Positions 31,997-34,956 of a stretch of 64,000 nt of DNA are shown here, one piece after another. Positions within the stretch are counted from its first letter, which is position 1. Each line of letters begins with the position of its first letter. Source of the DNA: a virus; IMG/VR virus record IMGVR_UViG_3300021952_000001, positions 1-64,000 of that record. One strand, 5' to 3'. The notes under the pieces are model-generated. The model saw only the letters and a list, made by a program, of their open reading frames with translations. It was not told where the DNA came from and searched no databases. Made by a program: the position numbers and the translations under genes.

Positions 31997-32406
31997 TTTT
32001 TTCTTTCACGTTGATCTATCCATTCCAACACTTCTAATACTGATGGAATTCTATCATTAAACATAGCATGTCTTGAATCTAATAATATCTGAACCATTTC
32101 ATCTTTATGGATGTATTGAGTCATATCAATTGGTTCAGGTCTTACTTCTTCAGAAATTGCATCTGCTCCATAAATATATCCATTAGGAGTTGGTGGTGTA
32201 GAGTTGAACATAAACATACTTTGTGATATAGATAATTTTAGTTTACGTCTTATTTCATCTTGTTCCATTCGCACAGCTAACTCATCAGTTCTATCTGCTA
32301 GCTCTTCTTCTTCTTCTTCTTGAGCTTGTGCTTTTTTCTTTGATTCATGTACTGGCTTAATCCACTTACTAAAGAATCCTAAGTATTCTGGTTTATCGTC
32401 TTCCAT
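31993..32406 (-). CDS. Hypothetical protein, about 137 aa
   Basis: Not recognised. The middle is a Glu/Gln/Lys-rich helix (KKAQAQEEEEEELADRTDEL), flanked by hydrophobic ends. A start at 32439 is possible, but the ATG at 32406 gives a 14-base overlap with the phosphatase gene instead of 47, so it is preferred. Confidence 0.5.
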   Translation of the reverse strand: MEDDKPEYLGFFSKWIKPVHESKKKAQAQEEEEEELADRTDELAVRMEQDEIRRKLKLSISQSMFMFNSTPPTPNGYIYGADAISEEVRPEPIDMTQYIHKDEMVQILLDSRHAMFNDRIPSVLEVLEWIDQRERKK

Positions 32407-33127
32407 TTTCTTCTGGGTATAATAAGGTTGCGAAATCACTTTGCCAATATTCTTTACTATCTATGTTCATGATGGTAAGTTTACCAGTCCAACCAGCTCC
32501 ACTATCAAGATTCCATAGATTACCATATTGATGAGGTCCTGTGTTATCAGCAGTGTGTCCAACATAGATTTCATGAAACTGTTCAAGAGGTTTAAACTTA
32601 CCAGCAGGATTATTCTTCTTACCAAATGCTGATCTAGCACCAAGTATAAGGCTTCTATCCCAATGACATTCTCTTGCTGTTGTACCAGCATTCACTCTTA
32701 AACCAGCTTGTTTCTCCCATGGTCCTTCATAATGATAATCCCAACCAGCATGTATAAACAATCTATTCTGATCATCTATATACCAATCTTGTTGGTCTTT
32801 CCAGAAGTCTTTATGATGTTGATCTACTAACAATCCTGTTCTTACATAGGAAGCCATAGTTGCTTTACCACCTTGTTCTGTCCATAATATAGGTGTTTGG
32901 CCCATTTGGAACCAATCATTAACCCATACATCATGATTACCTCTAATACTAATTAGATTCTTGATGGATAATAGTTCTTCTACACATTCTGCAGTTTCAC
33001 TCCATCCATCTGCTACATCACCTAATTGTATAAGTGTGTCTTTCTGTTTGTCAAATCCACTTCTCTCAAAGCATTGTAACATTGCTCTATGATTACCATG
33101 GATATCTCCCATTACAAATGTTTTCAT
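32393..33127 (-). CDS. PPP-family metallophosphatase
   Basis: 244 residues. FVMGDIHGNHRAML is the GDxHG motif, LIQLGDVADGW the GDxxDxG-type motif and ISIRGNHDVWVN the GNHE/D motif, the three metal-binding signatures of the lambda-phosphatase/ApaH group. It dephosphorylates proteins or cleaves dinucleoside polyphosphates; lambda phage carries a similar enzyme. The leader has the AAATAAGATATG motif. Confidence 0.85.
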   Translation of the reverse strand: MKTFVMGDIHGNHRAMLQCFERSGFDKQKDTLIQLGDVADGWSETAECVEELLSIKNLISIRGNHDVWVNDWFQMGQTPILWTEQGGKATMASYVRTGLLVDQHHKDFWKDQQDWYIDDQNRLFIHAGWDYHYEGPWEKQAGLRVNAGTTARECHWDRSLILGARSAFGKKNNPAGKFKPLEQFHEIYVGHTADNTGPHQYGNLWNLDSGAGWTGKLTIMNIDSKEYWQSDFATLLYPEENGRR

Positions 33128-33612: not shown

Positions 33613-33748
33613 CTTGTTGTTGAGATTGGACTCTACTTCCTCCGTAAGTACTCAACTCCTTCTCTGTGTGGATAGGACTTAACATTCATGAGAAGCCAAA
33701 TTTCTCCAATGTCTGTTGCTGTACATATTTGACATCAAGCAACTGCTG
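33613..33748 (-). other. Non-coding stretch with hairpin, no gene seen
   Basis: Between the tRNA-like RNA and the terminator. On the minus strand GTTGAG...CTCAAC closes a 38-base hairpin (about 33619-33656) whose inner part TACTT...AAGTA exposes a GGAGG on the minus strand (CCTCC on the plus). Only frames of 18 codons or fewer are present. Confidence 0.4.
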
Positions 33749-33934
33749 TGATTGAGACAGGATTCGAACCTGTATTGTTGTACACCATCTTATGTATTGT
33801 TTAGGTGTTATGTACACCATCTATGCGGTAACTTTGCCAAGACTCTGACCATAGCAATTTTTTTATATCACAAATACATAAAGCGTCTACCATGAAAGGA
33901 CCTTTAATATTCCTAACTATTCCGCCACTCAATC
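33749..33934 (-). ncRNA. Oversized tRNA-like RNA (class II type, interrupted)
   Basis: On the minus strand a perfect 7-bp acceptor (GATTGAG 33934-33928 with CTCAATC 33756-33750), a 5-bp T-arm with TTCGAAT loop (33757-33773), a tRNA-Leu-like D-arm (GCG, GAAT...TGGTAGA, CGC; 33925-33883) and a 16-base variable region are present. The D-loop holds about 26 extra bases. The anticodon stem is 9 bp (33881-33873 with 33798-33790) and closes a 74-base loop with internal hairpins such as GGTGT-ACATA-ACACC, with no normal anticodon. No CCA is encoded. It may be an interrupted tRNA or a non-decoding tRNA-like RNA. Confidence 0.55.
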
Positions 33935-34088
33935 ATTTAATAGTCTTTCCTATTAGTCACCTATGTTATTATTCGCTATTTAATAAATGTACACGTAATG
34001 TAACAGAATTGCAGATTAGCACTTCATAATAACGGCCAACATTACAAGGTTTGTAAGGAATCAATGTATCTACAATTCCAAGTTCTAG

Positions 34089-34411
34089 TGGAGGCGGTGG
34101 GAATCGAACCCACGTCCAAACTACTTTCATTAATACAATTTATACAGCTTATTTAGGGTCAAGCTAGGCTTAACGATCCACCACTCTGTTTAATCTAACA
34201 GAGAAATCCTTATTCAATTTAGGCTGCTACAGCAACTTCTTCTCCCAATAGAGAGAATACTTTGTTCATGTTAGCTTCGATTTGTGCGTTTGCTCCTAGA
34301 GCTACTACACGAGTTGTTTTGTTGCCAATTAATTAAATTCACCTTAGTTTACAGTTATCTCTCTGGCTGATTGTATTAATTAGTGGTAACCTGTCAAAAC
34401 CAGTCGCCCCC
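34089..34411 (-). ncRNA. ssrA: Transfer-messenger RNA (tmRNA)
   Basis: The 5' end reads GGGGGCGACTGGTTTTGACAGG, the near-universal tmRNA start. The 3' end reads GTGGG-TTCGATT-CCCAC then CGCCTCCA, pairing its last 7 with the first 7 bases. An 11-bp P2 helix joins 34380-34370 to 34139-34129. The tag frame begins after GTAGTA with GCT at 34302 and runs 27 codons to TAA at 34219; it begins ALGANAQIE and ends GEEVAVAA, a degron-type tail. A CTCTGTT/AACAGAG hairpin follows the tag. tmRNA rescues stalled ribosomes and tags their products. CCA is not encoded (CTA). A tag of 27 residues is about three times the usual length. Confidence 0.95.
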
Positions 34412-34956
34412 AATATTCCTCATGTGAGGACACTTATCATTACTTTTTTAAATCTAGCACCCTCTTTCTTATATGACTGTTTCTTTATATTTACGCCCAT
34501 ATAAGAGTAGGGTCAAGCTGAGAACTCATTTGTGTTGTGTGGGAGTTGGAAACCCATTGCCACATTTCTCCAATTCCTTTCTCAAGGGAACAACACATCT
34601 ACCATTACTGATAGTATCTTTATGTAAAACTTATATGAACACCTCTACCCTTACTTGGTTTCACGATTATCGTTCTTTAGTTATTACAAAGGTATTCAAT
34701 GTTTAACCTATAGCTTCTAACAGATTATCAGTTCTGACACTTTACACAGCTTAGCTATTTTATTATAAAACCACACATCCATCAAGATTGGGATAAATCA
34801 TTAAAGTAGAGCTAACGCAAAAAGTCAGGTGTACGCTTTAACTATTATCATACTCAACAAACATAACACCTCTTGATAGTGTTATAAGTGAGAGTTTTCA
34901 TAATTTGCACTCACAAATATTTTTAACTTACTTGTTTGTCTTTCTATGTGTGGTTT
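34412..34956 (-). other. 545-base non-coding stretch with structured RNA
   Basis: No convincing gene on either strand. It holds the branched hairpin at 34532-34596, an ATAACAC/GTGTTAT hairpin near 34862-34884, a GTGAG/CTCAC hairpin just beyond it, and a TTAAAG/CTTTAA pairing near 34800-34850. It is probably the 5' part of the transcript that carries the tmRNA, or separate small RNAs. Confidence 0.45.
34532..34596 (-). ncRNA. Branched hairpin, candidate structured RNA
   Basis: A 7-bp closing stem (GTGTTGT 34532-34538 with ACAACAC 34590-34596) encloses an inner TTGGA/TCCAA stem and a TTCC/GGAA hairpin, giving a possible three-way junction of 65 bases. It lies about 120 bases upstream of the tmRNA on the same strand. 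The family is not recognised. Confidence 0.35.

Follow-up and report, generated by a model that had tools for sequence, protein, structure and literature searches.

Background

The tags encoded by tmRNAs are usually regarded as short, interchangeable degrons. According to one review their usual length is 10 residues, within a range of 8–35 (PMC3968760), and 10 is also the commonest length in a 2025 database that includes 79 phage sequences (PMC11915505). Phage-borne ssrA genes are known from Bacillus phage G, the Mycobacterium phages Bxz1, Wildcat and DS6A, Cellulophaga phage Calle and Maribacter phage Panino. The phage G tag has 13 residues (ARAGORN), as against 35 at the locus described here, and the DS6A tmRNA, unlike ours, has no tag (PMC11915505). 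The literature that we found on Calle and Panino gives the tmRNA gene but no tag sequence; a seemingly similar tag of Bxz1 was not found in the phage collection and is not used as evidence.

The tmRNA gene and its genomic setting

The analysed DNA (the window) comprises 64,000 nucleotides of an IMG/VR virus record of 114,355 bases. The record derives from a tailed phage with genes for terminase, portal, major head protein, DNA polymerase and an rII-like protein. The best match of the terminase was found in Leptolyngbya phage Lbo-JY46 (40%), with more distant matches in phi17:2 and crAss-like phages. The hosts of the phage are Bacteroidota bacteria.

ARAGORN called a single tmRNA in the window (34088–34411, minus strand), and the Rfam covariance model RF00023 matched 34086–34411 on the same strand with 93.3 bits (cut-off 47; E 5e-35). 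Both programs thus agreed on the gene, strand and ends given by the first-pass annotation, which had described a complete minus-strand tmRNA and proposed precisely this check; the acceptor stem, the P2 helix that connects both halves of the molecule and the T arm are all there (Table 1). The T arm, GGGTTCGATTCCC, contains the GTTCGA expected of a tmRNA, and a G3.U70 wobble can be read in the acceptor stem. Such a wobble is the identity element for alanine. The encoded 3' end reads ...CCTCC-A-CTA, i.e. CCA is incompletely encoded, so the RNA probably depends on CCA addition by the host, along with the host alanyl-tRNA synthetase. The gene appears to encode a working phage tmRNA.

Table 1. Features of the phage tmRNA gene (window coordinates)
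Feature	Position	Strand	Basis or remark
tmRNA gene (ssrA)	34086–34411	minus	ARAGORN and RF00023
Acceptor stem, 5' strand GGGGGCG	34405–34411	minus	partner CGCCTCC 34090–34096; pairing in RF00023 alignment
P2 helix, 5' strand TTAATACAAT	34370–34379	minus	complementary to 34130–34139
Hairpin CAG-AGAGATAA-CTG, at pseudoknot 1 place	34352–34365	minus	conserved, covarying in relatives
ACTAAGGTGAA, 3' of hairpin	34338–34348	minus	near-invariant among relatives
Resume element UAAUU (34331–34327) and resume codon GGC (34326–34324)	34324–34331	minus	
Tag coding sequence, 35 codons, GNKTTRVVALGANAQIEANMNKVFSLLGEEVAVAA	34222–34326	minus	comparative
Conserved core QIEANMNKVFSLLG	34243–34284	minus	third-position variation; predicted helix
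Putative degron AVAA	34222–34233	minus	xAA ending in 80/86 relatives
Tag stop TAA	34219–34221	minus	sequence and homologs
Post-tag hairpin TTTCTCTGTTAGATTAAACAGAG	34184–34206	minus	near copy in crAss-like phage cr128_1
7-bp stem GTTAAGC-CTA-GCTTGAC	34158–34174	minus	fold
P2 helix, 3' strand ATTGTATTAA	34130–34139	minus	
T arm GGGTTCGATTCCC	34099–34111	minus	RF00023 alignment and sequence
Acceptor stem, 3' strand CGCCTCC	34090–34096	minus	

Where pseudoknot 1 would be expected, the RNA has a short hairpin with a C-A-G/C-U-G stem and the loop AGAGAUAA. In relatives the CAG/CTG stem becomes GAG/CTC and CAC/GTG, and the next outward pair is A-U, C-G, G-C or U-A depending on the phage. These paired changes indicate that the hairpin is a real helix. 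The second helix of pseudoknot 1 (S2) was not found, and no complement of the AGAGATAA loop could be recognized by eye. A palindrome, TCCTCACATGAGGA, lies immediately upstream of the mature 5' end (34417–34430, minus strand); it too displays paired changes in relatives (CCCTCACATGAGGG, CCCATACACATGGG).

Several other elements were noted on the minus strand around the gene. A tRNA-like gene (33749–33934; acceptor GATTGAG/CTCAATC, T arm ACAGGTTCGAATCCTGT) has stretched D-arm and anticodon regions and matched Rfam weakly (23.3 bits); it is possibly an interrupted or decayed tRNA-Leu. Directly after its 3' end is an RNA-like element (33618–33748; CAGTTGCTTGA...GCAACAGACATTGG...GAATGTTAAGTCC...GTTGAGTACTT), which gave no Rfam match and recurs right after tmRNA or tRNA 3' ends in four viral contigs (L036, L119, L120 and L093); it might be a processing element. 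Upstream of the tmRNA, the segment 35211–37603 encodes a MoxR-like AAA ATPase (bpMoxR) and a 456-aa protein without a family match.

A class of related tmRNAs in Bacteroidota phages

BLAST identified relatives of the locus in Flavobacterium phages (Fpv group), in the Cellulophaga phages phi38:1 and Calle_1, and in the crAss-like phage phi14:2. A search with the conserved region AGAGAGATAACTG...AACTAAGGTGAA as pattern retrieved at least 119 viral-contig stretches; genomes from 84,980 species of bacteria and archaea gave no match. In total, at least 86 distinct homologous tag reading frames were obtained from Bacteroidota phages, with lengths of 24–49 codons (median 35). The long tag is thus not peculiar to this phage, and tmRNAs proved to be common in viral contigs. 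The class was defined by the hairpin followed by ACTAAGGTGAA and by a core, QxxANMxxVxxLL, read in the frame of the resume codon; the window tmRNA has all of these. It is best read as a class of phage tmRNAs with a bipartite tag, composed of a conserved core and a degron.

No protein common to the window, Fpv4, phi38:1 and phi14:2 was detected at E<1e-3, and none of the genes next to the tmRNA is a constant neighbour (the best was present at 29 of 143 loci), which suggests that the tmRNA element moves alone between phage lineages. A metallophosphatase encoded in the window (32393–33127, minus strand) shares 58% identity with one in the otherwise unrelated phi38:1, and is another gene exchanged between these phages.

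Group I introns (RF00028) were detected at the T loop of three related phage tmRNAs (L097, 1524–1739; L156, 3280–3538; L006, 3097–3366). One contig with a long-tag tmRNA also contains a Hatchet ribozyme match (L102, 3304–3454; 75 bits).

Position of the resume codon

Nucleotides U at −5 and A at −4 set the reading frame of a tmRNA (the U85/A86 rule; PMC2481249), and both precede GGC 34326 in the window. In 91 distinct relatives a resume-like element, mostly TTAAAT or ATAAAT followed by GGC, GGA or GAC, is located 14–17 nt past the ...ACTAAGG motif. The same layout was found in host tmRNAs (TTTTTTAAAC-GGC-GAG-AAT and similar; UUUAAAC-GGC), and in the Rfam alignment GGCAAC of the window falls on the consensus resume region. 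The fixed spacing from the hairpin, the likeness to the hosts, the U/A rule and the Rfam alignment together identify this GGC as the resume codon. A single sequence is no proof of a 35-codon tag, because 35 open codons occurred in about 10% of shuffled sequences; the proof lies in the set of homologs.

It could be argued that translation resumes downstream, at GCT 34302 (27 codons, the start chosen in the first-pass annotation) or at GCA 34293 (24 codons, chosen by ARAGORN), in which case the first 8–11 codons would be an untranslated spacer. Both are alanine codons, as in most tmRNAs, and both follow a UAGNA with A at −4, as read from the sequence. However, neither site is conserved, and relatives with leaders of 5–10 codons have no such codon there. 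The starts predicted by ARAGORN differ in phi38:1 and lie far beyond the core in phi14:2, whereas the GG[CA]/GAC site keeps a constant distance from the hairpin, resembles that of the hosts and is in frame with the core in 90 of 90 cases; moreover, the third-position excess described below is already apparent in codons 1–8. Both downstream starts were consequently rejected on comparative grounds, and this explanation appears improbable. With the start at GGC 34326, the tag is indeed unusually long, as originally claimed, although at 35 rather than 27 codons; its stop had been placed correctly (TAA in 70 and TAG in 16 of the 86 distinct tags). In this class ARAGORN evidently sets the resume codon at the wrong position, and tags already on record for such phages may therefore be incorrect.

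Evidence that the tag is read as protein

The tags consist of a variable leader beginning with G[KN] or D[KN], the core, a variable linker and, in most cases, a C-terminal xAA. The family motif Q[VI]xANMxxV[FHY][SN][LI][LI] corresponds to the first 13 core codons (34284–34246 in the window). Leaders come in nine lengths (5–17 codons), yet the ANM core shares the frame of the resume codon in 90/90 cases. None of the 86 distinct tags is open in either of the other two frames; one relative (L037) has no ANM in its tag. Positions 1 and 2 of the A-N-M, V, L and L codons are largely fixed and position 3 varies, with synonymous variants such as GCT/GCA/GCC/GCG, AAC/AAT and GTA/GTT/GTG, and also TTA/TTG/CTT/CTA. 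This third-position excess in the core (permutation p = 0.004) argues for selection on the peptide. Within the clade of the window, codons 1–8 displayed 537, 676 and 1097 pairwise differences at positions 1, 2 and 3, respectively; codons 9–17 showed no such excess because there is little variation there in this clade. The suggestion that the tag carries extra signals is thus borne out by a core under protein-level selection. It was unnecessary to invoke internal initiation at the invariant ATG, as the preceding Q, A and N are just as fixed.

AlphaFold2 (84-row alignment) modelled a single helix at residues 10–34, with pLDDT above 80 in the core. Models of short peptides are prone to be helical, which makes this weak evidence; the core is probably helical. 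The tag gave no similarity to solved structures at E<=10 and no convincing match among PHROG families (best 0.004).

The ending of the tag, judged in the first-pass annotation to be of a protease-recognized type, is AVAA, and 80 of 86 relatives end in xAA; by analogy, such an end would act as a ClpXP-type degron. The tag of phi38:1 and Calle (L003, L005) ends in AVGV instead: not every tag carries the degron, which this lineage may have lost.

Possible host partners

Host tmRNAs were collected in part by the GENNYALAA pattern and otherwise by a class-wide search. The tags of Flavobacteriia have 9–10 residues and are chiefly GENNYALAA. SmpB was present in 25 of 25 Flavobacteriia genomes and was not found in the phage, whose tmRNA therefore probably works with the SmpB of the host. 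SspB was found in none of the 25 genomes, which rules out the best-known tag-binding adaptor as a partner of the core. A phage-encoded partner was also considered and rejected, as the four phages share no protein and the tmRNA has no constant neighbour; the partner, if any, is more likely a host protein.

Discussion

On comparative and structural grounds, it is quite probable that the window encodes a working tmRNA whose bipartite tag of 35 residues would deliver proteins to ClpXP-type proteases through its degron and whose core is a candidate second signal. The conservation of the core in dozens of phages, together with the absence of the RNA motif from all searched prokaryote genomes, suggests that the tag is more than a mark for destruction.

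A simpler interpretation is that the tag is merely a spacer with a degron, its length providing an unstructured handle for the protease and the core having no specific partner. Most tags do keep the degron, the lengths of leader and linker vary widely (24–49 codons in total), and unrelated viral tmRNAs also have tags of 21–31 residues according to ARAGORN. A pure spacer, however, would not retain Q-x-x-ANM-x-x-V-x-x-L-L at the protein level across distant phages, and we consider this explanation rather unlikely. Much less credible is a decoy that competes with the host tmRNA, the tag sequence being incidental: a short form of the DS6A RNA inhibits the host tmRNA (PMC11915505), but an inhibitor needs none of the features kept here, i.e. 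a tRNA-like domain, a resume element, an open and selected tag, a stop and a degron. Finally, integration at tmRNA genes is common and tags resembling those of hosts occur in some viral contigs, so the gene could in principle be a decayed or passenger host tmRNA acquired at such a site. Selection on the tag, and the lack of the motif in every one of the 84,980 prokaryote species genomes searched, leave this origin barely conceivable.

The reading that we favour, a bipartite tag with a second signal, implies the following course of events. By analogy with its family, the phage tmRNA would be charged with alanine and brought by host SmpB to ribosomes stalled on cut mRNA, where translation would restart at GGC 34326. 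The template would then add 35 residues comprising a short variable leader, the conserved core and the C-terminal AVAA, which, like the ends of host tags, presumably targets the tagged products to proteases of the ClpXP type. The core would provide the second signal, perhaps most likely as a docking site for a host factor. This could be a protease or adaptor, giving faster handover or access to another protease, or something that keeps stalled chains soluble. With mRNAs being cut in the course of infection, the phage would benefit from the ribosomes and amino acids set free.

More tentatively, we propose that Bacteroidota phages exchange this tmRNA across distant lineages and that a recognition helix preceding the degron allows a host factor to re-route stalled proteins. 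If true, a conserved second signal in a tmRNA tag would serve to re-route quality control during infection, beyond what the 9-aa host tag does; tags of up to 49 residues with a peptide-selected core imply a second tag function and, probably, a host factor recognizing it. Cultured members of the class in which this can be tested are Fpv4 and its relatives in F. psychrophilum, and phi38:1 and phi14:2 in C. baltica.

Comparison with known tmRNAs

A general T-arm pattern retrieved 120 viral stretches with tmRNA-like ends. Most of the tags called on them by ARAGORN have 9–14 residues and about one-sixth have 21–31 residues of other sequence, although some of them may be miscalls or belong to prophages. 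The tmRNAs of six viral contigs from other lineages (L357, L412, L413, L415, L420 and L436) have such tags, unrelated in sequence, by the same program. Long tags may have more than one origin among viruses.

Calle_1 and its relative phi38:1 have the same tag class as the window. The crAss-like phage cr128_1 (Steigviridae) carries an unannotated tmRNA-like locus that shares the post-tag hairpin and has a UUUAACU-GGC resume element, but differs in an apparently short tag, GNTYRAAA, and in a group I intron at the T loop, because of which it was missed by both ARAGORN and RF00023.

The window tmRNA resembles Flavobacteriia ssrA (GENNYALAA) in its tRNA-like domain, P2 helix, U at −5 and A at −4 before GGC, glycine as the first tag residue, xAA C-terminus and, presumably, dependence on SmpB. 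It differs from it in a tag of 35 instead of 9–10 codons with a conserved core, and from standard one-piece tmRNAs in a pseudoknot 1 region that consists of a short conserved hairpin and ACTAAGGTGAA.
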